Positions 13,001 to 27,395 of a stretch of 38,009 nt of DNA are shown here, piece by piece. A model generated the notes under the pieces. The model saw only the letters and a program-made list of their open reading frames with translations, was not told the DNA's origin and ran no database searches. Made by a program: the position numbers and the translations under genes. This DNA comes from a virus, in the IMG/VR virus record IMGVR_UViG_3300032298_000543, positions 1-38,009 of that record, one strand, 5' to 3'. Position 1 is the stretch's first letter. The number at the start of each line of letters is the position of its first letter.

Positions 13001-15530
13001 CGAACGTCTCGAGGTGCTTGACCATCGGGTCGCCCCAACCGATTGCCGACATCATCCGAACCACCGGGCGCAGGTATGCCGGGATGTTGGCCAGCGGGCC
13101 CTGCTTGCGGACCCACTCCTCGGATGCGGTCAGCTTGGCGTTCGGGTTGTCTGCCAGCTTGCGGATGACGTTGTCGTAGACGTGCGTCTTGCCGATGCCC
13201 TGCGCCGACAGCTCTTGCACCAACCCGCCCAGGCCGCCGCGCAGCGTCCATGCCAAGAACTCCTCACCGGCCGCACGAGGGATGAACGCCAGGCGCAGCA
13301 GCACCGCCGGCTTCCACACCTTCGTGATCGCTGTCTCCACCACGCCGACGTCCAGCACGTCGAGGAACCGAGCCAAGTGCGCTGCGCGCACGGTCTTGAT
13401 CAACGTCTTGAGGTCCGGCATCAGCACCCGGTCGGCCTGTTGGCTGAGGAAGATGCCGGTGTGGGAGGTGCGTCCGTTGATCTGCAAGAAGTCATCTGCG
13501 CCGTAGGCGTGGTGGAATCGCTCCAACACCTCACCGACCAAACGATCACCTTCGGGCAACTCGCGTACACCGGACATGGTGAGGGCGTTGTCGAACCAGC
13601 CGTTGATCAGTTCGACGCGCGTGGCGTTGGAATCGGCAGCGATGATGGAGTCGCGCCACATGCGCCGTGCGTACGACGGCATGTTCATGGATCGACCCAT
13701 CTCCGACAGAGCACGCATGTCCCTGGCCGCGTCCGGGCCGTTGACAGCGAACGACGCATTGGCAGGCGCCATGGTCGTCATAGCAGTCATCACCTCGCCA
13801 AGACGAGCCATGCCCGGCATCTTCCCGGCGTAGCGACCTGCCATGTACGACAGGGGCGCACCCTGGTTGTAGAGCTCGGGCCGGATGATCGAACCGTGCT
13901 CGGTGAGGCGTGCAGTCATCACCGCCGGCAAAGCAGCGCTGATGTCCTGGCCCTGCTTCGTCAAGTGCTCGATCTTGCGGAGCAGACCCTCGTCGCCCAT
14001 ACCGTCGGTGAACGCACGAGCCGATCGCGCCACGTTTTGGTACGTCTCGCGAGCAAAGCCCCACGATTCGAGGATGTACCGATCAGTGCCGTTCACCGAA
14101 CCGACACCGCGCAACAGCGGCGTGTTGTGAGCTTGAGACAGCATGTACTCGTGCAGTTGCTTGACGGTGAACTTGCCGTCGACCAGTCCGCCATAGGCCT
14201 TGAGCACGTTGCGGTGCTGCATCAGCGCTTCGGCTTCTCGACCGAAGGACTTGCTGATCCTCCAGATCTCGTCGATGTTCTCCGCGTTCATGGCGTTGAC
14301 AATGGCTTCGTGGCCGCGCAGCACCTTCGGGTGCTTGGCCACGTCAGCGAACACCTCAGCGAGATTGGAGCCCTCGTTCAGCGCCAAACCGAACGTGCGC
14401 GCCTTGTAGATCTTGTTGACTCCGCCAAGCATGATCGTCGGGTCGACAGCAATGGTGAAGGCGAAGTCCACGCCACCCGACAGGACGTTGTACATCGTGC
14501 TGTCAGGGTCGAGGTGGAACAAGCCAGCGATGTCACGGCCTGGGCTGTACTTCGCTCGCTGCAGTTCTCGGACGGCCTCTTGGAACGTGGCGTCCTGGGT
14601 GACAGCGAAGATGGTCTGGGCCGCCTGCTGGAACTGGGGAGTGCCCACACCACCCATGCGGGAGGCCAGCTGCTCGATCATGGCCATCTGGCGGGCTTCA
14701 CCGCCGCCACGCGCTGACGCAGTCTCCATGGCCAGCTCGCTCAACGAGAACCCGTCGATCTGTGCCAGGTCTTGAGCAAGGCCGCTCAGTCGAGGATCGC
14801 CCAGCATCTCGTCGACGCGACGCAGCGCCCCCGGCTTGAACGTCCGCTCACCGTCCCACGATGCGTCAAACGCTCGCATCCAGTCACCGGGATTGACGAT
14901 GGCAGCTGCTGCTGATCCGGCACCCAGTGCGCCGAGGCCGAACGCGCCGAACGCCAACAGCGAGCCACCGCCTGTCGGTGCCGCCAACGCCAGTGCGCCG
15001 ATGCCACCGACGACACCGAACACGCCCGCAGCGACCTGACCCCACCCGTCCTGCATGCGACTCGTGCAGTACAGGTGGCCCGGCCAGTTGCCTACCCAGG
15101 CCAGTTTTTCAAGCGCAGGACCGGCAACCGGCTTCACGACGTTGCCGATGCCGCCGATCACTGCTCCGGTCACGCCGGCAATCGGCGCAACGATGTCCCC
15201 AAAACCGAACCCGTCGTCGCGTTGAGGCGTCGAGTAACCCATCTGACCGAGCGCCATCTGCTGCTGCTTGGTCAGCTGGCCGAACACCGATCGCTGTGTC
15301 GCCGGCGTCATCCCCTGCAGCTGCGTGAGCATGCCGTCACCGACCTGCGCTGCGTACAGCGAACCAGCCGAGTCGATCAGCTCCTCGTTGCTGAGGTTCG
15401 ACAAGACCATCGACTGCACCGCGTCCGGCCGATCAGCCATGTAACGGTTCATGGTCGTGACGAGGCGCGTCCTCGTTGCAATGTCGGGGGTGAAATCGGG
15501 GTTGTCTGCCAGGAACGAGAAGTCGCTCAC
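7041..15530 (-). CDS. giant 2829-aa virion/ejection-type protein with an ADP-ribosyltransferase-like segment
   Basis: The largest gene, over a fifth of the window. Two Gly/Ala-rich hydrophobic stretches near the N-terminus (about 112-137 and 165-212) could insert into a membrane, as in DNA-ejection proteins. Residues about 1150-1395 have an ART-like layout: LFRGM with R1174, then SFSS at 1217-1220 followed by an A-x-x-Y-A helix, and later QESIIIPAG with E1386. The E-x-E position is imperfect and a coiled coil is inserted before it, so activity is uncertain. The C-terminal 800 residues include Trp/Pro/Gly-rich hydrophobic segments (PFWYAEENF; a glycine-rich patch near IWPGLGTIAGG). It overlaps the preceding gene by 4 bp (ATGA). 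I know that some actinobacterial podoviruses carry a single enormous gene; whether this one is related cannot be tested here. Alternatives are a tape-measure-like or polyvalent injected protein. Confidence 0.85.
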   Translation of the reverse strand: MSDFSFLADNPDFTPDIATRTRLVTTMNRYMADRPDAVQSMVLSNLSNEELIDSAGSLYAAQVGDGMLTQLQGMTPATQRSVFGQLTKQQQMALGQMGYSTPQRDDGFGFGDIVAPIAGVTGAVIGGIGNVVKPVAGPALEKLAWVGNWPGHLYCTSRMQDGWGQVAAGVFGVVGGIGALALAAPTGGGSLLAFGAFGLGALGAGSAAAAIVNPGDWMRAFDASWDGERTFKPGALRRVDEMLGDPRLSGLAQDLAQIDGFSLSELAMETASARGGGEARQMAMIEQLASRMGGVGTPQFQQAAQTIFAVTQDATFQEAVRELQRAKYSPGRDIAGLFHLDPDSTMYNVLSGGVDFAFTIAVDPTIMLGGVNKIYKARTFGLALNEGSNLAEVFADVAKHPKVLRGHEAIVNAMNAENIDEIWRISKSFGREAEALMQHRNVLKAYGGLVDGKFTVKQLHEYMLSQAHNTPLLRGVGSVNGTDRYILESWGFARETYQNVARSARAFTDGMGDEGLLRKIEHLTKQGQDISAALPAVMTARLTEHGSIIRPELYNQGAPLSYMAGRYAGKMPGMARLGEVMTAMTTMAPANASFAVNGPDAARDMRALSEMGRSMNMPSYARRMWRDSIIAADSNATRVELINGWFDNALTMSGVRELPEGDRLVGEVLERFHHAYGADDFLQINGRTSHTGIFLSQQADRVLMPDLKTLIKTVRAAHLARFLDVLDVGVVETAITKVWKPAVLLRLAFIPRAAGEEFLAWTLRGGLGGLVQELSAQGIGKTHVYDNVIRKLADNPNAKLTASEEWVRKQGPLANIPAYLRPVVRMMSAIGWGDPMVKHLETFGRWQRDLLAEGFGGTEDAIRGAIRRGITGVDFGPVRAGPRLNIAENVDTILLGNPYSWRRMLFGGVDSELVRAADQFYGQNGTAMWRATSAINSGPVDTGHDQRKIIRETYTDRKGNVRTREMVTMRGSPTLRSRNNDPYYASAVHHNVTMATDDVLHKAAMAEIRLIRPVALEEQAIFDALQPFVDVNTYLGRKIIREFTDEFNPDTWRGLMGELQREHPLLARELSLRMPASGLDEPDLDLVIDALRAHQQALIAAGELPAFIDNMLGEVIAARSMLDYYRTLDPGHRSFLATQVDDLWNPTSMTHDMLKDFVNGVGEELPGPSLSLFRGMQAKNQFKIHPNGDLELFGMPQDHWNPAHNDPSGTGQGLSISFSSNREHARSYAEKQGEANLNGFTVEVDANHVYGETGQPKHPTGAQGFAWAGDQDGGFGAYYFGQNGEININLQDNVVKHDLNDPAIVQKLEALEAHRSELMTEVNLMRDEFQQFQMDAGDPVYGLSDDEARKIDEMTATLDAKWREVTDVEIEIDDLENDKIRVLKQESIIIPAGKWKVMANQSDPVQVAAAKDAVRAKLVKFDDWYKTLTDDELEQIVLQIYTVDPATLDLDVEEVLNSLIRFGPSRPTSWQQLNDPVASTVSASANPDRIDDWEQMAVRTLADRQGKTVSEVLDALDAANPPPSIEQYVDGARRVANFAMIEGRLFSVTTAPDFSDFQARLFQLASDLEDVAIRTGSQNDLAALDMANELVRWSWDKEAEVAFTRMGNDEMKEHFFQVAGEGFARDAGWNKTIGSAENMVELKKGVREGFHRDFAAKTPLEFFDGIHEFDKPTSWGTRPSQSPFHKSWDDAAPHIQRRVRDALNDPNNADSVEHSLRQLADDPDNLIGQYNAVVKAGSREIWSVDDLTHQRMQGNFWNPSSFSYEDVLQAAPDEAARRWIIMHRQLIEETLATGAGNVVSSSRELVQALDNAAGYTGKTGALIIDRQVMAATLKEPKTTWGKDIEVWDVDDQLLLERRATRRTDDADSKMEEWASLAEGRMRQLFTARTRQGLKPKVRPGQELADGTIGPARPLVFHDPDQRFPVGADELITEPGMYYDHKGRLVPNGSLNYFDQGVTKVDEKGEVMWALYGPASRDADDAMWGRQFYVPQEHPTVGRGRAEPTRDVIPAYRSQERHVTKVGADQLPSYAIGETLTSKERGGWDKFVSFGFDRVIGPALDSIVRNPMAFHHFSRRFIEARKGMSWLMSPEMKQGLEEIGRTMSVMSLPDGVDARALGRQLRDVAVYDGLVGAENWKDAQALAWMRGHTADEFDELLARSITRADAQKAARSASWKQANPDGTMPPRVLTRADSQAASAGVSANQLSKHNSGELINALGSEATFDEVLTYVESQLPPGALDSVDAFSTSRVTDIVMAHPVLKQLQGGEWEELIKGSTTRNHINTASGEFAQITAINDIVPFLDSHEFKTQFAEYGKGMLPFWYAEENFMKRWARGLINEGPAMIRKAQLGYMGLKEAGVVRTDENGRDWFVYPGSGLLIDTISRIWPGLGTIAGGIMFQTPTDSMFPGLSARFGQPSFTPLATLPLDLVTAMFPELEPIQRAALGDFSSSRNVIQTLIPTTVTNFYESLTSSPESNPKYAAAVTAALAQMDAAGQIPDNLTPMQVDELMDRARDHGRIILFAQMLTGFTAPGPPSALNAGETASFLGIGAQDPSSIVRGRYLQMVRQFGIEQGTINFMETFPDATLEDVVNPMAFTQARGASASGAPISSTEEALAWYDINSDYLNEFPDAGPWLLPMLDGGTRTQFAYNQVVERGLRVRKSPEEFFRAMKFRTAAGDYFAMQRKYNDAIALAGQNGDSDRVSALKDERDYQMLIYRAAHPIFSEELQSSDGRERRARIIEQMRIIVKDPEAPRSDMNAAQLDGMITMIDVFDDYKVRMATLSNDRSANGRAEIEFLKQQYADFMERYTATNPKLMPFWNSVLEPESSLS

Positions 15531-15985
15531 AGGTTGGCCTTTCGTGCCAGCTCGGCAAAGTAGGGATCACCTGTTGCAGCGCTCAGTCGACGCCACGACT
15601 CACCGATCGGAGAACCAGTGCGAGCCTGAAGCGCCTCCGTGCCAGGACCGGGACCAAGCGATAGCCCTGCTGTCACGGGCTCACCAGGACGCGCCGACGG
15701 TGCCGTCAGCAATCCAGCCTGACCCTTGAGCTGCTGTGCGCTCGCCATCAGTGCAGCAAACTGATCGGCTGCCGGCATCGGCGGCGCAGCCGGAGGCTGA
15801 CCAGCTGGTGGCGCAGTGGCCTGCTGCATCGGGTTGGTCGCAGGCAGCGAAGCTCCCTGCAGCTGAGGTGCGGGCATGGCCTGCTGCAGCGCTGCCTGCT
15901 CGACGCCTGCGCCGTACATCTGTCCACCAACGGGCGAGACGGCCTGTGCAGGCATGCCCGCCTGGGTCTGTCGCTTGCGTGGCAT
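15527..15985 (-). CDS. Pro/Gln/Ala-rich protein after the portal gene
   Basis: 152 aa. Basic start (MPRKRQTQ), then a disordered Pro/Gln/Ala/Met-rich body (about 10-75), a Gly/Pro linker and a helical C-terminus ending in YFAELARKANL. GGGAGG precedes the ATG. Only one base separates it from the portal gene, and its stop overlaps the giant gene's ATG by 4 bp, so translation is probably coupled. Its composition resembles the C-terminal tail of the portal protein. Family unknown; a portal-associated assembly factor or minor virion protein is the best guess. Confidence 0.65.
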   Translation of the reverse strand: MPRKRQTQAGMPAQAVSPVGGQMYGAGVEQAALQQAMPAPQLQGASLPATNPMQQATAPPAGQPPAAPPMPAADQFAALMASAQQLKGQAGLLTAPSARPGEPVTAGLSLGPGPGTEALQARTGSPIGESWRRLSAATGDPYFAELARKANL

Positions 15986-15986
15986 G

Positions 15987-17816
15987 TCAGCCTCCCATGG
16001 TCTGCATCAGCTGCCGCATTGCTGCGGTGCCCTGCGGTACTGCGATCTGCTCGGCCGGTGGCTGCATCTCGGGCGGCAGCTGCTGCTGCATCGCGCCGGG
16101 ACCACCGGCCATGCCAGGCATCGCCTCAGGCGGTGCCACCATGCCCTCGGGCGGCGGCGGTGCCTGCTGGGCCTGCAGTCGGCGCATCTCCTCGTCGGCC
16201 TTGGCGACAGCGGTGAAAATGTCCTCGCCCTTGATCAGATAGTTGCGGATCAGCACGGCCACCGTCGGCGGCAGCTGACCGGCGACCATCTGCTGCAGGA
16301 TGGTCTGCTTCAAGGCGGCCTCGAACTCCTCCTCGTCCACCGTTGCCGCTTCCATGTCCGGGTCGTCGATCCACGGATGCTTGGCCCGGAACGTGCGGGC
16401 ACTGATCGCCTTGGCGCCGAACAGCGAGCCGAGGATCTGTGTCTGCTGGATGACGTCGGCGCCGGCCACGACGTAACTGACGGTGTTGTCGAGCGTCTCG
16501 ATGTGCTGCATCGGCACGAACTTCACCGTGCCCTTGTCGCCGGGCCAGCCGGAGAACAGCTCGTACCGCTGCTCGGGCCAGTACGCCCGGTACATCTCCA
16601 AGATGCAGCTGTTCAGGTGCGGGAGCCACGCCTCCATGATTTCGTGGAGCTCTTGGACTCGTGGGTCGACAGCCATGCCCGCAAGAGCATCGATGCCACG
16701 GCCAGTACGAAGGGCACCGTAGGTTTCCCCTCCGAACTGCGGGACCAGGCCCGTCGAAGTACGAAAGTTGCGCTCGAGACGATCGATGGTCTGCATCGTG
16801 GCCGGATCGGGTGGGGTTCGCAGCACGCCCACGCTCTCGACGTCGACGAGCATGTTGATGCTGCCTTCGCGCCCATCCTGCCACCGGCCTCCCTGGATCG
16901 ACGGGTTGCCAGCCTGGCGCCCGATGGCGTACATGTCGGGGAAGATCGCCTTCTCCTGGGCGATGATGTTGAGCGCCATCATCTTTGCCTGCAGGTCGAC
17001 CATGCCGAGCATGGAGCCAAGGCGGCTGGCGATCCGGCCGAGGCTGACATTGTGCGGGACGATGCCGTTGACCATGCCGGTGCGGTTCGGGTACACCGGG
17101 CTGATCTGCATCCACGGCACCCGGTAGCTCGGGGTCTGCTGCCACGAGGTGACTTCGCTCGGGCCGACGATGCCCCACACGGTCTGGTCGAGGTCTTGCC
17201 ACTCGACAACGTCCCACAGCGCCTTCAGCTCCCGGCCCGACACCGGACCGCCGTTCTCGGAGGCGCACTTCGGGTAGATGCGGCGCAGGTGCTCGGCCGA
17301 GTAGCGGGTGATGAACGCCACGTACTCGGGCTGGCGCAGTTCCTCATCGGCCTGGTCCTCGACGAACGTGCCGAGCGGATCGCGCACCTGGATCTGTGGC
17401 ATGCCGGTGATGAAGTTCGGCACCACCGAGATGGACGTCGTGTGGTACGCGCTCAGGTGACGGTACGCCCGCCGGCGGCCGAGGTTCCACTTCGAGTGGT
17501 GGTACGTGGCGGCGATGATGCGACGACGCGTGGCGGCGTACTCCTTCGACCGGACGCCTGTGTCCTTGGCCGGGTTGAGCGCCGGCACGGTGACGATCGG
17601 GCGCACCGACGCAGCGCGCATGGCCATGTTGTCGACGGCCTCTGCGATCAGCGCCGGGGTGAGCGGCGGCATGTTCGGCTCCTGCTTCACCTCCGGCACG
17701 GGCAGCACCCAGTCGCCGTCGTAGCGGTCGAGCACGTCGCGCATTTTCTGCAGCACCGGGCTTTGCTCGCGCTGCATCTGCTGCACCAGATGGATGATCT
17801 CCTCGAATGACCTCAT
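15987..17816 (-). CDS. portal protein
   Basis: 609 aa. Forms the dodecameric ring at the packaging vertex, through which DNA enters and leaves. Length, all-alpha core with a long helical stem region, the segment after IDRLERNFRTSTGLVPQFGG and the 'DPRVQELHEIMEAWL' helix fit phage portals. The C-terminal 90 residues are Pro/Met/Gln-rich and disordered. Its ATG overlaps the terminase stop by 4 bp (ATGA), the usual TerL-portal order. The assignment rests on synteny and general likeness; I cannot name the exact portal family. Confidence 0.85.
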   Translation of the reverse strand: MRSFEEIIHLVQQMQREQSPVLQKMRDVLDRYDGDWVLPVPEVKQEPNMPPLTPALIAEAVDNMAMRAASVRPIVTVPALNPAKDTGVRSKEYAATRRRIIAATYHHSKWNLGRRRAYRHLSAYHTTSISVVPNFITGMPQIQVRDPLGTFVEDQADEELRQPEYVAFITRYSAEHLRRIYPKCASENGGPVSGRELKALWDVVEWQDLDQTVWGIVGPSEVTSWQQTPSYRVPWMQISPVYPNRTGMVNGIVPHNVSLGRIASRLGSMLGMVDLQAKMMALNIIAQEKAIFPDMYAIGRQAGNPSIQGGRWQDGREGSINMLVDVESVGVLRTPPDPATMQTIDRLERNFRTSTGLVPQFGGETYGALRTGRGIDALAGMAVDPRVQELHEIMEAWLPHLNSCILEMYRAYWPEQRYELFSGWPGDKGTVKFVPMQHIETLDNTVSYVVAGADVIQQTQILGSLFGAKAISARTFRAKHPWIDDPDMEAATVDEEEFEAALKQTILQQMVAGQLPPTVAVLIRNYLIKGEDIFTAVAKADEEMRRLQAQQAPPPPEGMVAPPEAMPGMAGGPGAMQQQLPPEMQPPAEQIAVPQGTAAMRQLMQTMGG

Positions 17817-19564
17817 GCGTATGCTCCCACCGGGACGATCAAACCGGACTTGGTTCCGCTCCAGGGTACGTTGCGTTTGAACCCCGAGGCATTGATGCCA
17901 TCAGGAGCGTGCTTCCAGCGGTTGCGCCAGAGGATCCATCCGAACCACAGCGCCATCACTCGGTCCTGGCGCAGTTTCGATCCTCGCGCCTTCGGCTTCC
18001 AGGCGTACAGCTGGCGCAGCAGTTCCCCGATCTCGTGGCGGGTGTAGTCGTCCTCGGCCCACGGCAGCTCGATCTCGCCCTTGATGAAGCTGGTCACCAT
18101 CGACGGCACACCGATGTCCTCGTCGTACTTGTTCCAGCCGGTGAGGTGCTCACGGATGGCGAAGCCGTAGTGACGCTGCATGTCCTGCAGCCGCTCGTCG
18201 CGCGCCAGACCGCGCTGGAAGTTCATGCTCTCGATGACGACGTCGGTGACCTGCGCGGTCTGGTTCAGCATCCATACGACCTGGTTCAGCTCGGACATGA
18301 TCTGCTCGTTGGATGACAGGTTGGACTGCTCGCGGATCGCCCGCACCGTCATCTTGCGGTGGCCGATCTCGAGCCCCATGACGCAGTTGATGCCACCGAT
18401 TGCCGGGTCCAGAGTCACATAGCAGATCGATTTCGGAGTTGCCCGATGGTGCAGCAACGACAGCTGCGGGTTGAGGCAGTGCTCGACGTTCTCCGGCGTG
18501 AAGGTGGCGTTCTTGCGGTTGGCAGCTGGGTTCTGCATGTAGTTGCGGTTCCACGCCTCCTCACCGACCTTGCGCCGCTGGCGTTCCAACATCTCCAGGG
18601 TGTAGCGCTCGGGCCACAGCGGCTTCTGCACCGGGTTGTTCATGTCGGTGTAGTCGGTGATGATCGCCGGGAACTTGATGACCTTCAAGATGCCATCGAG
18701 GTGCGGATCCTCAGCGAAGCGTTCGTACACGTCGTCCTCACCGACGCGAGTGCCGGCTATCGAGGTGATGCCGTGCTCGCCGGGCCGTGACAGTGCGTCC
18801 TGACGCACCCAGTCCTCGAGCTTGTTGGTGTCGTTGATCGTGTTGACCGACTGGAGGTCGTCCAAGTGAAGATGGTCGGTGCGGGTCGACACGATCGACG
18901 ACTTCCAACCGAGCGCCATCAGCGAGTAGTCGCGCTCGTCGTGCATCGACTTCTTGTAGACGTTGAAATACTGCGAGCTCCACGGCTGAGCGACCGTCTG
19001 ATCGGCCTCCATGCCGGTCTTGGGCTTGAACGGTCCGAAGTCGCGCACGAACTTCTTGAACGGGCCTGCTGGCTCCATGCGGTGCTTGATGCGGCCGACG
19101 ATCTTCTTGGCAATCGTGAGGTTCTCCGACGCTACGGTGCCACGCCAGTTCGGATTCACCGCCAGGCGCTCGCACGCCAGGTTCTCGTAGGTGGTGGTCT
19201 TGCCGTGCTCAGGCGGCCACAACGACAGCACGATGTTGCCAGGCCGCATCTTGTCGATCTCGTTCAGCCACGCCAGCTGGAACGACGCGTACTCCATGTC
19301 GAAATAGGTCTTGCCGAAGCTGGCATGATCGCCGGTCCACTTTGCCTCGAGGGCGCCGCCGTTGGTCTCCAACCGCGCCTTGTCCATCTCGACGACGAAG
19401 TACGGGTGCTTGCGCCGCCAACCTTCGTACGTGCGGATGCTGACATTGACGTCAGGCTCACGGCACCCGTCAGTGATCGACAGACCGTTCCGCACATGCA
19501 CCAGCAGCGCTTGCCGTCTCTCCTCGGCTTCTCGGTATCGAACATCACCAATCTTGGTCACCAT
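17813..19564 (-). CDS. terL: terminase large subunit with N-terminal HTH
   Basis: 583 aa. Packaging motor: ATPase plus nuclease. Walker A is WPPEHGKT (116-123), Walker B HLHLDD (231-236), and the RNase H-like nuclease residues are D386 (TLDPAIGG), E445 (VVIESMNF) and D534 (QDRVMALW). Residues about 15-55 look like a helix-turn-helix followed by an aromatic/basic helix (YEGWRRKHP), similar to the DNA-binding part of small terminase subunits; no separate small subunit gene is visible nearby. The start lacks a Shine-Dalgarno. CACACT lies 6 nt upstream of the ATG, only a weak echo of the TAGACT-N6-ATG arrangement seen at 24.4 and 24.8 kb. A strong terminator sits just upstream, so it probably has its own promoter. 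Confidence 0.95.
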   Translation of the reverse strand: MVTKIGDVRYREAEERRQALLVHVRNGLSITDGCREPDVNVSIRTYEGWRRKHPYFVVEMDKARLETNGGALEAKWTGDHASFGKTYFDMEYASFQLAWLNEIDKMRPGNIVLSLWPPEHGKTTTYENLACERLAVNPNWRGTVASENLTIAKKIVGRIKHRMEPAGPFKKFVRDFGPFKPKTGMEADQTVAQPWSSQYFNVYKKSMHDERDYSLMALGWKSSIVSTRTDHLHLDDLQSVNTINDTNKLEDWVRQDALSRPGEHGITSIAGTRVGEDDVYERFAEDPHLDGILKVIKFPAIITDYTDMNNPVQKPLWPERYTLEMLERQRRKVGEEAWNRNYMQNPAANRKNATFTPENVEHCLNPQLSLLHHRATPKSICYVTLDPAIGGINCVMGLEIGHRKMTVRAIREQSNLSSNEQIMSELNQVVWMLNQTAQVTDVVIESMNFQRGLARDERLQDMQRHYGFAIREHLTGWNKYDEDIGVPSMVTSFIKGEIELPWAEDDYTRHEIGELLRQLYAWKPKARGSKLRQDRVMALWFGWILWRNRWKHAPDGINASGFKRNVPWSGTKSGLIVPVGAYA

Positions 19565-24374: not shown

Positions 24375-24591
24375 CAGAGGAGTCTACACCTGGAGAGTCG
24401 GGTGGGCATGAGCAGGCACGATGGCCAGTGCGGGTCAGCGGGTGGCCGTGGCTGTCGCAGCCGTACAGGTCGAAGCACAGCTGTTCCCAGGTGATCGGCA
24501 GCCACAGTTCCTCCATGACGGACACGATCTCCTCGGCGAGCAGCCGGCGCTCGCGGGCCGCCGCCACGTTGCTGGCCTCCTCGGCGTCCAT
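24304..24591 (-). CDS. hypothetical 95-aa protein
   Basis: Starts MDAEEASNVAAARERRLLAEE one base after the upstream stop. A helical N-terminal half with WLPITWEQLCFDLYG is followed by a Cys/His segment (CDSHGHP...GHRACSC) that could bind a metal. The last 24 codons overlap the start and promoter of the lipoprotein gene, so the C-terminal part may be constrained by that overlap. Family not recognised. Confidence 0.55.
   Translation of the reverse strand: MDAEEASNVAAARERRLLAEEIVSVMEELWLPITWEQLCFDLYGCDSHGHPLTRTGHRACSCPPDSPGVDSSDAQKTAFRRHPGSHRMLVERPTA
24381..24392 (-). promoter_or_regulatory. leaderless promoter element before the lipoprotein gene
   Basis: Minus strand reads CAGGTGTAGACT, 6 nt before the ATG at 24374. 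TAGACT fits a -10 hexamer, and the expected transcription start falls on the ATG itself. An identical 12-mer with the same 6-nt spacing precedes the gene at 24829. No convincing -35 box. Confidence 0.6.
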
Positions 24592-24592
24592 G

Positions 24593-24829
24593 TCAGCGGT
24601 TCGTCTCCATGGGCATGACGCCGATGATGCGGACTGACGTCTCGGACGAGAAAGCGTACGTCACGGCCTGCGCAGCGTTCAGCGGGGAGGTGGCGTACAC
24701 GTCGACCTTCCAACGGGCACCGCGCTCGTAGACCACCCGGAACAGCTGGGCGACCTCGACCTCGGCGACCGGGACATCTTCGAGCATGGTGGCGTTCATC
24801 GGCTGCGGGGAGTTGTCGGTGAAGATCAT
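24593..24829 (-). CDS. hypothetical 78-aa protein, first gene of the late arm
   Basis: Starts MIFTDNSPQPMNATMLED and ends IIGVMPMETNR. Mixed alpha/beta with an acidic N-terminus; no metal site or membrane segment. It opens the leftward arm, directly after the non-coding region. There is no Shine-Dalgarno, but the CAGGTGTAGACT element ends 6 nt before the ATG, so the message is probably leaderless. Function unknown. Confidence 0.65.
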   Translation of the reverse strand: MIFTDNSPQPMNATMLEDVPVAEVEVAQLFRVVYERGARWKVDVYATSPLNAAQAVTYAFSSETSVRIIGVMPMETNR

Positions 24830-24835
24830 GCCGCC

Positions 24836-24847
24836 AGTCTACACCTG
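24836..24847 (-). promoter_or_regulatory. leaderless promoter element of the leftward arm
   Basis: Minus strand CAGGTGTAGACT followed by GGCGGC and ATG, the same arrangement as at 24381-24392. Upstream it merges into CCTACAGGTG, part of a near-palindrome ACCTACAGGT at 24842-24851 that could be an operator. No clear -35 box. Confidence 0.6.
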
Positions 24848-24891
24848 TAGGTACTCAGCGGTCTGTCCCCCATTCGGGTGACAGCCGAACG

Positions 24892-24926
24892 GGTCATTGA
24901 CCGGCCCCGAAAGGTGGAGCTACGGT
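24892..24926 (+). promoter_or_regulatory. candidate rightward promoter with operator palindrome
   Basis: TTGACC at 24897-24902, an 18-nt spacer, and TACGGT at 24921-24926. The -35 lies inside the palindrome GGTCA-T-TGACC (24892-24902), a possible repressor or activator site. The predicted start, about 24933, coincides with the first base of the long hairpin 24933-24985. Promoter calls by eye are weak. Confidence 0.4.
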
Positions 24927-24932
24927 GAACGA

Positions 24933-24985
24933 CGAAGGCCGCCCCTTCGACCCCCAGTGTGGCAACTGGAGAGGGACGGCCTTCG
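24933..24985. repeat. long imperfect hairpin at the start of the non-coding region
   Basis: CGAAGGCCG (24933-24941) pairs with 24977-24985; after one mismatch, CCCT pairs with AGGG, and the inner part contains a second 5-bp hairpin (CCAGT/ACTGG). The CGAAGGCC style is that of the terminator at 3234-3270, so it may be a bidirectional terminator or the 5' domain of a structured RNA. Confidence 0.7.
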
Positions 24986-25518
24986 GAACCTACAGACGCT
25001 GGCCATTCTGCCAGATGCGCCGCTCGAGGACAAGCGGACAGGGCGTACTCCAGTCGCACGGAGCGGGTCAGCACACACGGGAACGTGGGTAGATCCCCGC
25101 TGCCTGGTGTCACGCTCAGAAGGACCCGGACCTCAGGCGTCAGATGAGAGTCACCGGGGAGGCGATACAAGATGAACTCGTCGAGCCGTACGTACACGGC
25201 CGGGAGTCCGGGTGTGGCAACCGGACGGGGGCACTGACCAGTGGGTCACACGTGCGGTAGACACCCACAGGGGGGGAATATCCGCAGGTGAGAGCATGAA
25301 ACGGCCAGGACGAAGATATAGGCATAGGGCCTACAGGTACATGCCGGTGTATGCCCCACAACAGCCACGAACACCCCTCCCCGGCGTAGAAACCCCACAC
25401 ATTGCGGCCGGACGGAGCCGTCCGCACGCAACTCACCGTTGCGTTTCAGTGACGACAGTGCCACCTGTGCTGCGTGTTCGTCCACTGACAAGCTCACTCT
25501 GCCTGCCTTTCGTCGCAT

Positions 25519-25557
25519 GGGGTGGTGGCGTAGATCCTGCCGAACCCCCATCACCCC
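25519..25557. repeat. 10-bp hairpin
   Basis: GGGGTGGTGG (25519-25528) with CCATCACCCC (25548-25557), one G:T wobble, 19-nt loop. The wobble pairs only in one RNA orientation, G:U when read as plus-strand RNA (A:C if minus), a small hint for rightward transcription. Confidence 0.6.
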
Positions 25558-25970
25558 GCCTGGCTCCGTACCGCTCACGTCCCGGGCTGTCGGTTCTCGT
25601 CGGAATGGCTGTCGTCTACTGACAGACCGTGCGTCCCGCACACTGGCCAGCGTTTGGCCGCTGGACCGCCACGAACGCAGCGGCGTTCGATCCGCTACTG
25701 ATGAGTAATGAACTGCTGTCTAGACCAACGATCCAACGTGTGGGCACAGCACTCCGAGGCGCTGCCAAGAGCGAGCGCAACCTGTTCGTGCTTGTGCTCA
25801 CGTCCTTGTCTCGTTGGCCGTCGACAGCCCAAGACCGGCGGGGGGCCAGCCTCCCACCACCCCCCAAAGGCCAGCCTCACGTCTCCTGGCGTTGCGGGTT
25901 GGGAACCTGTCCGCTGCGTGTAGCTCTACCGACAACCCATGTGACCAGCAAGCTGGCCGAGGGCTTGATG

Positions 25971-25995
25971 CCGACGACAAACCCCGTGTCGTCGG
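25971..25995. repeat. 8-bp hairpin, first of the dense array
   Basis: CCGACGAC (25971-25978) and GTCGTCGG (25988-25995) around a 9-nt loop AAACCCCGT. Same geometry (8 bp, 9-nt loop, AC/GT closing pairs) as the GGGCT-loop hairpins but a different loop. It abuts the next hairpin without a spacer. Confidence 0.75.
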
Positions 25996-26045
25996 GTGTG
26001 CGGCTCGCCAAGTGTGAGACCAGCGGGGGTAGGCGAGCCGCACAC
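25996..26045. repeat. 14-bp perfect hairpin
   Basis: Arms 25996-26009 and 26032-26045 are perfectly complementary (GTGTGCGGCTCGCC), with a 22-nt loop. The longest perfect stem in the non-coding region; it could act as a terminator or as a structural helix of an RNA. Confidence 0.8.
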
Positions 26046-26090
26046 ACCCTGACGGTGCGCACATCTCCCTGTGACTTCTGCGGCGGGGCT

Positions 26091-26115
26091 GTGGCCACGG
26101 TGGGGCTGTGGCCAC
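26091..26115. repeat. GGGCT-loop hairpin 1
   Basis: GTGGCCAC arms (26091-26098, 26108-26115) around loop GGTGGGGCT. The plus-strand 13-mer over loop and closing pairs is ACGGTGGGGCTGT. A direct repeat GGGGCTGTGGCCACG is created because GGGGCT also precedes the left arm. Confidence 0.75.
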
Positions 26116-26155
26116 GCCTGGTCCCGCCTTGTCCTGGTACCGATGCCCGCTGAAT

Positions 26156-26211
26156 CCCAAGACGACGTCGGCAATGCTGGCGCGCAGCCGTGCGGTGTGT
26201 GTCGTCTTGGG
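26156..26211. repeat. 11-bp hairpin enclosing the 16-nt core repeat, copy 1
   Basis: CCCAAGACGAC (26156-26166) pairs with 26201-26211. Inside, at 26174-26189, lies ATGCTGGCGCGCAGCC, which can itself form GCTG/CAGC. The same 16-mer recurs inside the next hairpin, although the outer stems are unrelated. Confidence 0.75.
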
Positions 26212-26232
26212 GCGAGGCATCGGCCGGTACTC

Positions 26233-26305
26233 CCCGAGGCTCCGCTATCGATCGCACAGTCTCAGATGCTGGCGCGCAGCCTGGCGAGAGTGCGATCGAC
26301 TCGGG
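26233..26305. repeat. two-part hairpin enclosing the 16-nt core repeat, copy 2
   Basis: Inner stem TCGATCGCAC (26248-26257) with 26290-26299; outer stem CCCGAG (26233-26238) with CTCGGG (26300-26305), leaving a 9-nt bulge on the left. The core ATGCTGGCGCGCAGCC is at 26266-26281. Confidence 0.75.
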
Positions 26306-26400
26306 TCCGTGCCTACCAGGAACGCGTAACCACACACACAGTGTCCGCATCGTGGCATGGCGCTGGAGCGGCCTCGCCTGGCCCCTGCTGTGTTGCTTGG

Positions 26401-26435
26401 GCGGCGATTCGACGGAAGGGCTGTCGAATCACCGC
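26401..26435. repeat. GGGCT-loop hairpin 2
   Basis: GATTCGAC (26406-26413) and GTCGAATC (26423-26430) around GGAAGGGCT, extended by GCGG/CCGC after one mismatch. The 13-mer is ACGGAAGGGCTGT. Confidence 0.8.
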
Positions 26436-26484
26436 GCTGAGGAAGGGGCGTCTTTGCCCACCCCACCCGTGATGTGACCCGAGC

Positions 26485-26505
26485 CACCACGGAAGGGCTG
26501 TGGTG
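26485..26505. repeat. GGGCT-loop hairpin 3
   Basis: CACCAC (26485-26490) and GTGGTG (26500-26505) around GGAAGGGCT, identical to the loop of hairpin 2 although the stems differ. The 13-mer is again ACGGAAGGGCTGT. Confidence 0.75.
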
Positions 26506-26530
26506 CCACGGTTCACACCCCAAGTGGGGG

Positions 26531-26556
26531 CCCGAGCAAAGCCGGACGGCTTCGGG
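26531..26556. repeat. bulged hairpin between GGGCT-loop hairpins 3 and 4
   Basis: CCCG, a 4-nt bulge, and AAGCC (26531-26543) pair with GGCTT and CGGG (26548-26556) around loop GGAC. Only 5 nt separate it from the outer stem of the next hairpin, so the array is nearly continuous here. Confidence 0.6.
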
Positions 26557-26561
26557 TCGTA

Positions 26562-26601
26562 AAGGGCGTGGACGAACGGTAGGGCTGTTCGTCCATCCCT
26601 T
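26562..26601. repeat. GGGCT-loop hairpin 4
   Basis: TGGACGAAC (26569-26577) and GTTCGTCCA (26587-26595) around GGTAGGGCT; an outer AAGGG/CCCTT stem extends it across a small internal loop. The 13-mer is ACGGTAGGGCTGT. It is the last large hairpin before the first early gene. Confidence 0.8.
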
Positions 26602-26682
26602 GACGACTTCCCGCCCAGCACCATGCCGTGATGAGTCCACTGCGTGAGTGGTTCTCGCAGCATTTGATGAAGGGAAAACGTG

Positions 26683-26943
26683 ATGAAGCAGGTGGTGAAC
26701 ATCCATCATTCTCGGTTCGACGTGTACATCGGTCGGCCGTCGAAGTGGGGTAACCCGTTCGTGATCGGCCGTGATGGCTCGCGTGCGGTCGTGATTGCGA
26801 AGTATGAGCGCTGGCTCGACTCGCAGCCTCAGTTGCTGGCTTGCTTGGGCGAGCTGAAGGGTCAGGTTCTCGGGTGCTACTGCGCTCCGAACTCCTGCCA
26901 TGGTGACGTCCTCGCTCGTAGGGCAGCGCAGGTGGAGTCGTGA
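26683..26943 (+). CDS. DUF4326 family protein
   Basis: 86 aa from the ATG at 26683, with AGGGA upstream; a GTG one codon earlier is possible. It matches the DUF4326 pattern I know: VNIHHSRFDVYIGRPSKWGNP, then KYERWL and LKGQVLGCYCAPNSCHGDVL, with conserved C-x-C and CHG that suggest a metal or nucleophile site. Biochemical role not established to my knowledge. It is the first early gene after the hairpin region and overlaps the next gene by 4 bp (GTGA). The recurring pairing of small DUF4326 proteins with SLOG-type proteins hints at nucleotide metabolism or sensing. Confidence 0.9.
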   Translation: MKQVVNIHHSRFDVYIGRPSKWGNPFVIGRDGSRAVVIAKYERWLDSQPQLLACLGELKGQVLGCYCAPNSCHGDVLARRAAQVES

Positions 26944-27395
26944 GCGCTGTCGAGAGCGAGTTCCGGTTGCTGGTGTGCGGCTCTCGGGGCTTGACCTTGC
27001 CCGGCGATCGGGCGTGCATCTTCAGCACTCTCGATCTCATCCTCGACAGCCTCGCTGCTGAGGGTTGCGGTGCGTTCCACATCATCGAGGGCGGCGCTCG
27101 AGGTGCAGACGCCGCAGCGGGTGACTACGCCCGCACGAACGAGCTAGGGCTGACCACCGTCCGAGCCGAGTGGGATCGCTACGGCAAGTCCGCTGGGTAT
27201 CGGCGAAACGAGGCGATGCTCAGGCTCCGGCCGTCGCTGGTGCTGGCGTTCACCGATCGACCGCTTCCCGAATCCAGGGGTACGGCGAACATGGTTTCTC
27301 TGGCCCGCTCTGCCGGAGTCCACACGAACGTCTACGTCCTTCGTGGCGCAGCGCTGCACGTCCCGTATCAGAACGACTTGCTGCCTCCGTTCTGA
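26940..27395 (+). CDS. DUF2493 / SLOG-fold (YspA-like) protein
   Basis: 151 aa from a GTG overlapping the previous stop. Rossmann-type pattern LLVCGSRG at the N-terminus, IIEGGARGADAAAGDYA, then AEWDRYGKSAGYRRNEAML and a final beta-alpha part with SRGTANMVSLA. These are signatures of the DUF2493 branch of SLOG proteins, which are thought to bind nucleotide-derived ligands. Ligand unknown. It is followed by a strong hairpin, so it probably ends a two-gene early transcript or marks an attenuation point. Confidence 0.9.
   Translation: MSAVESEFRLLVCGSRGLTLPGDRACIFSTLDLILDSLAAEGCGAFHIIEGGARGADAAAGDYARTNELGLTTVRAEWDRYGKSAGYRRNEAMLRLRPSLVLAFTDRPLPESRGTANMVSLARSAGVHTNVYVLRGAALHVPYQNDLLPPF

Follow-up and report, generated by a model that had tools for sequence, protein, structure and literature searches.

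A densely structured noncoding block in a phage genome, with one loop repeated on unrelated hairpin stems, as a possible large noncoding RNA

Four hairpins that share one constant loop on unrelated stems were found in a phage genome, in a block without genes between leftward and rightward transcription units. We propose that this block specifies a large noncoding RNA of the phage, on which the arms would offer copies of one binding loop to a single partner. The proposal is given a probability of roughly 0.5; transcription into one RNA, a protein partner and a role are all inferred. The window, i.e. the whole stretch of DNA analysed, is IMG/VR phage record IMGVR_UViG_3300032298_000543 (38,009 bases), and all coordinates refer to it unless another locus (L number) is named.

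Results

Four hairpins with a constant loop and complementary, unrelated stems

The window contains four exact copies of the 13-mer ACGGWRGGGCTGT, on the + strand only (26097-26109, 26412-26424, 26489-26501 and 26576-26588), within a span of ~600 nt. An earlier note, made by reading the letters without database searches, had listed these four occurrences as the constant loop of perfect stems of 8, 8, 6 and 9 bp. Positions and stems were confirmed, the loop in part. As the outer AC/GT of the 13-mer is paired, the true constant loop is the 9-mer GGWRGGGCT, inside which GG/CT is able to pair (G-U, G-C) so that a WRGGG pentaloop remains. Every hairpin caps a longer arm, in which a small internal loop or bulge is followed by a basal stem, such as GTGA-CCG...CGG-TCAC below hairpin 3 or AAGGG...CCCTT below hairpin 4 (Table 1). 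The last hairpin lies 84 nt ahead of the rightward operon.

The note had further described the stems as covarying and nearly without common sequence, and this was confirmed as well. When the four copies were compared with a fifth from a related phage (L050), 7 of 9 stem pairs differed on both sides while remaining complementary, giving a covariation score of 0.97 vs 0.21 in shuffles. In the block, 4 hairpins combine a DRGGGC loop with ≥6 Watson-Crick pairs, vs 0.08 expected from dinucleotide shuffles (four were attained by 0/300 shuffles), and the remaining window, both strands included (~74 kb), contained one. The DRGGGC pattern was widened after relatives had been inspected, and counts based on it are therefore partly post hoc. 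The motif is also biased towards one strand (12 vs 2 in the window, 10 vs 2 in L247 and 11 vs 2 in L239). GCCCYH, the complement of the loop, is not enriched in the window block, where the + strand has two copies, and an internal kissing partner is therefore unlikely.

The hairpins might be a product of chance or a mutational by-product, such as GC-rich repeats or terminators. The GC content of 64% and the tolerance of noncoding phage DNA for inverted repeats speak for this view. It is all but excluded by the shuffle, strand and cross-genome tests, by the lack of intrinsic terminators (a stem followed by a T-run; none were found) and by the recurrence of the arms, with complementary stems, in relatives whose blocks have only 48-56% GC.

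The hairpins form the 3′ end of a noncoding, structured block

The note had missed the scale of the element, as the hairpins make up the 3′ end of a structured block of ~1.7 kb (~1.7-1.85 kb). Late genes pointing leftward bound this block on one side and the rightward DUF4326 operon on the other, and its 5′ domain is widespread in phages. A codon-usage gene finder called zero ORFs within 24830-26679, a PHROG search of ORFs inside the block gave nothing below E=0.1, and no three-base GC periodicity was seen there. Translation of the region, which the note had named as a refutation, thus found no sign of support. The block is noncoding and structured, and its place and strand are conserved in relatives. 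The two genes that open the rightward operon match PHROG 464 and 289; in L050 a DprA and DUF4326 pair also stands behind the block, there fused (read by eye). A tRNA scan of the window was empty, and no sigma-70 promoter was seen in it.

Table 1. Features of the window, with coordinates and strand.
Feature	Position	Strand	Remark
Giant ORF, 2829 aa	7041-15530	-	present in 7/7 relatives tested
Terminase large subunit (TerL)	17813-19564	-	PHROG 38; query for relatives
Noncoding, densely structured block (inferred giant RNA)	24830-26679	+	no coding call between 24829 and 26680
5′ RNA core (module 1)	24999-25231	+	separate conserved domain at 5′ end of block
Core hairpin CTCC-AGTCGCAC-GGAG	25048-25063	+	constant TYGCA loop, variable 4-bp stem
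21-mer ACACACGGGAACGTGGGTAGA, also given as ACACACGGRAACGTGGGTAGA, in core	25073-25093	+	hairpin with GNRA-type tetraloop
Module 2, weak divergent match	25303-25347	+	relatives have CAGGACGRTTATATATGG...GGCACATC
Hairpin with AAACCCC loop	25971-25995	+	identical loop in L045 (two) and L050 (one), stems unrelated
Perfect hairpin, 14 bp	25996-26045	+	
Constant-loop hairpin 1	26091-26115	+	GTGGCCAC-GGTGGGGCT-GTGGCCAC; perfect 8 bp stem; arm 26082-26128
Sub-domain	26132-26321	+	TCCTGGTA/TACCAGGA as closing stem; two family-B hairpins inside
Family-B hairpins	26156-26211, 26248-26299	+	common apical ATGCTGGCGCGCAGCC, outer stems differ
Long-range stem	26348-26366 with 26615-26633	+	encloses hairpins 2-4; pair probability 0.98-1.00 (fold of 24980-26680)
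Constant-loop hairpin 2	26406-26430	+	GATTCGAC-GGAAGGGCT-GTCGAATC; perfect 8 bp stem; arm 26401-26435
Constant-loop hairpin 3	26485-26505	+	CACCAC-GGAAGGGCT-GTGGTG; perfect 6 bp stem; arm 26473-26517
Constant-loop hairpin 4	26569-26595	+	TGGACGAAC-GGTAGGGCT-GTTCGTCCA; perfect 9 bp stem; arm 26562-26601
DUF4326 gene, first of rightward operon	26680-26943	+	Pfam PF14216
GTP-binding/DprA-like gene, second of rightward operon	26940-27395	+	

The 3′ part of the block (26050-26660) folds 8.8 SD below shuffles (z -8.8), the core just 0.5 SD below, and coding controls range from z -2.6 to 0. The minus strand folds nearly equally well (z -8.0). G-U pairs on the + strand occur in basal and long-range stems. 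A second constant loop, AAACCCC, was also noticed outside the window (L045, reverse complement, 14948-14968 and 15810-15836; L050, reverse complement, 14538-14568). A kissing interaction between the arm loops and the AAACCCC loops was discarded as an explanation, since the two features do not consistently co-occur.

A conserved core heads the block

The core shares 74% identity with L045 over 229 columns, and its part 25010-25231 also matches L038, L040 and L020 (~72-74% across the four). Two hairpins within it are conserved in form. A variant class of the 21-mer, ACACACCGAAAGGTGGGTAGA, changes the closing G-C to C-G, so that the pair is kept by a double change. For the TYGCA hairpin, compared in 17 contigs, both sides had changed in 17 cells, with a score of 0.64 (shuffles, 0.19). 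The exact 21-mer was present in at least 119 IMG/VR stretches and absent from all 84,980 genomes of bacteria and archaea searched. The window core had no match among isolated phages; two 95% partial matches of the 21-mer region to coli phages (E 0.9) were judged to be chance.

No Rfam family was found for the window or for the 21-mer regions where these were tested. GOLLD and ROOL in particular had no match at the gathering threshold in the window or nine TerL relatives, and none by E-value in window positions 24500-26800 (up to E 5) or six core-bearing loci (up to E 0.5). The note knew of no named element with this loop.

An extended -10 box lies directly upstream of the core on the same strand in L100, L107, L119, L138 and L179. 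In many other contigs an ORF of ~580-615 aa follows the core at a distance of 160-300 nt, and five of the six such ORFs that were translated are apparent HNH-terminase fusions (by eye). In those phages the core apparently heads a late operon. Many contigs among the core-bearing loci L097-L214 end <1 kb from the core. As a separate observation, tRNA-like minis without a D-arm were seen between phage genes, e.g. GCCGTAACCCGTTCGGGGGTTTAGTCGGTTCAATTCCGACTACGGC, at ~core+830, +1120 and +1445 in L241 and ~core+1480 in L237; they are possibly processing punctuation.

Related phages carry arms with their own loop

An IMG/VR search for two exact 13-mers spaced 55-85 nt apart returned none, and relatives were therefore sought via TerL and the core. 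The giant ORF was common to all seven relatives tested (E 1e-79 to 1e-213; 2400-3000 aa), which places them in one phage family. Two further structures were noticed among the TerL relatives: a Pistol ribozyme adjoining a tRNA in L014 (4279-4565, - strand), and a pair of hairpins with loop CATGAATGCG and different stems in L061 (2740-2912) and L065 (5090-5262), on the - strand.

Arms were found in L050, L025, L030, L239 and L243, in matching place and strand and with different stems. In L025 (= L247) the arms behind the core are caaaaaaacGGAAAGGGCGTTgtttttttg, ggtcggAAGGGCAccgacc and tttttgacGGTAGGGCGTTgtcaaaaa, and AAGGTCA and AAGAGCA loops also occur. L030 (= L246) and L243 (= L052) each have two arms that follow the core on its strand, L239 (= L026) has three with AAGGGCG/AAGGGCA loops, and L050, which lacks the 21-mer, has atggcggacGGAAGGGCTgtccgccat ~85 nt ahead of its DprA-DUF4326 gene. 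Loci belonging to one contig were not treated as separate lineages, and L030 and L051, whose copies are identical, were counted once. The numbers of loops in hairpins (3 in L247, 2 in L246, 3 in L239 and 2 in L243) were each attained by 0/300 shuffles; the single copy of L050 is not significant alone (38/300 shuffles). The arms are enriched behind the core, where their density is 0.122/kb, against 0.017/kb elsewhere in 4.4 Mb. When all 14 arms were aligned jointly with MAFFT the stems were misaligned, so the two length classes were counted separately, and the copies with a 7-nt loop (L239/L025/L030/L243) gave a covariation score of 1.07 vs 0.33 in shuffles.

Further support is provided by a covariance model, a search suggested by the note. 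Built from the window and L050 copies, the model found L011 (E=8e-4), a more distant phage (TerL 44%), where the hit lies upstream of TerL, with the strand as expected. L011 has three arms in its own structured block, two of them with loop GATGAGACT on different stems, and basal stems are present. The matches to L025 and L030 were weak alone (E 0.11 and 0.16) but coincide with the independently found copies. Non-complementary stems in relatives, the other refutation set in advance, were thus not observed in L050, L025, L030, L239, L243 or L011. The 3′ parts of L050, L011, L187 and L243 fold with z of -6.6, -10.9, -9.5 and -5.3, those of L239 and L247 only modestly below shuffles (-1.8 and -2.6). 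Loops are near-identical within a genome and drift between genomes (GGWRGGGCT, AAGGGCR, GATGAGACT). That the arms covary and that the loops are multiple is shown by these data, and RNA structure is well supported.

The core or module 2 is present without such arms in L045, L187 and L250, and the arms are hence not essential to the function of the core. L250, with the core end and module 2, came from a module-2 pattern search; L248, from the same search, was judged a chance match. The neighbour protein of L050, used as query, yielded no additional arm carrier.

Discussion

RNA or DNA

The note had left open whether the hairpins are an RNA domain or a cruciform site. A functional structure is supported, and RNA is the likely form, although transcription has not been observed. 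RNA is favoured because of the upstream core with its GNRA-type loop, the promoters in relatives, the long arms, the multi-domain fold and the G-U pairs on the + strand. The reading is limited by the stability of the minus strand (z -8.0), the missing sigma-70 promoter in the window and the lack of expression data.

As an alternative, the hairpins could act in DNA, as cruciform protein sites or as promoters of the kind used by the N4 virion RNA polymerase. The N4 promoters are likewise several small hairpins with a conserved loop that precede early genes, and N4 too has a giant ORF; the loops of these promoters have 3 nt. In favour of this view are the constant loop on variable stems, its presence in several copies ahead of what is probably an early operon, and a giant ORF of 2400-3000 aa, near the size class of the N4 virion polymerase. 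Pfam and PDB searches detected no polymerase signature in the ORF of the window; a PF00940 search was empty, but its positive controls were unmatched too. The ORF follows a presumed portal and contains an ART-like stretch (SLFRGM...SISFSSN, by eye). Unlike N4 hairpins (5-7 bp stem, 3-nt loop), those of the window have a constant 9-nt loop, reduced to 3-5 nt only if the inner GG/CT pairs. Moreover, internal loops, basal stems and G-U pairs on the + strand are unnecessary for a cruciform, and relatives in the same family lack the hairpins. Action as DNA is thus disfavoured and very improbable, yet not excluded.

A leader of the rightward operon

An RNA acting in cis, as the 5′ UTR of the rightward operon with put/boxB-like antitermination or translation control, remains a live rival, though we consider it unlikely. 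The HK022 put RNA, which consists of two hairpins, and lambda boxB, where the loop is kept and the stems vary, are also phage RNA hairpins upstream of an operon. Strand and position fit such a leader, and a promoter was not seen in the window. The arms are always on the operon strand, the last one ~85 nt before the first gene (window, L050), and elsewhere the core precedes the HNH-terminase ORF by 160-300 nt. On the other side, 1.7 kb is very long, and arms can sit far from the operon (in L239 one arm is at +266 of ~1600). Put and boxB are far shorter and lack 3-5 identical loops in a 1.7 kb fold (PMC9378689); put RNA is not known to have a four-fold repeated loop.

A large RNA with or without a protein partner

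GOLLD and ROOL, both phage-linked, are large, highly structured noncoding RNAs, and the block resembles them in this respect. They form RNA-only complexes via kissing loops and A-minor contacts (PMC12286853). A possible and live rival is therefore an ornate RNA of this style, whose loops would serve RNA-RNA docking for an oligomer or a compact fold. Its size, the many perfect stems, the long-range closing helices and the GNRA-type core loop agree with this. Against it, WRGGG/AAGGGC loops are not self-complementary, GCCCYH is not enriched and there is no Rfam match. By cmscan neither GOLLD nor ROOL matched the window or tested relatives, and the window has no tRNA; in the literature consulted, the repetition of one loop across unrelated arms is not reported for either of them.

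In the reading we prefer, the four hairpins would be repeated arms of a ~1.7 kb phage noncoding RNA, transcribed from the + strand between late and rightward genes. From its 5′ end this RNA would consist of the conserved core with its GNRA hairpin, module 2 and a 3′ region of unrelated arms with one loop. All copies of the loop may bind one partner in trans, most likely a lineage-specific RNA-binding protein, for which the RNA would act as a multivalent sponge or scaffold. A single trans partner is inferred because the loops are nearly constant in any one genome, change jointly from genome to genome and have no enriched complementary partner; constancy on unrelated stems is expected if copies in one molecule share a partner. 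The partner and the function are thus inferences.

A similar design is known from CsrB/CsrC and RsmY/RsmZ, single RNAs with many copies of a short purine-rich loop motif on unrelated stems. CsrA sites obtained by SELEX are closed by AC/GU pairs (PMC7652899), as are the hairpins of the window. Unlike in CsrB, the motif of the window is RRGGGC-like, GGA is missing from GGTGGGGCT and GGTAGGGCT in the window and from GATGAGACT in L011, and the RNA has a conserved core. It is also about five times longer than CsrB. A CsrA gene was absent from seven phage records. Since GGA is missing from some loops and no phage CsrA gene was found, the RNA is not a member of the CsrB/RsmZ group and is similar in design only.

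A bolder reading is that the block represents a new class of giant phage RNA, with a conserved core and interchangeable 3′ arms, in which 2-5 copies of a genome-specific loop evolve in concert and gather one lineage-specific partner. We offer this joint claim tentatively, as one that is slightly more apt to fail than to stand.

Although phages have compact genomes, this family retains 1.2-1.8 kb of noncoding, structured sequence at one conserved position. If transcribed, it would be an RNA family that is in no catalogue, with a widespread core, and it would join the few large phage RNAs known. One loop in several copies is an unusually direct handle on function, and concerted drift of the loops, if true, would let the partner protein be sought by co-variation.
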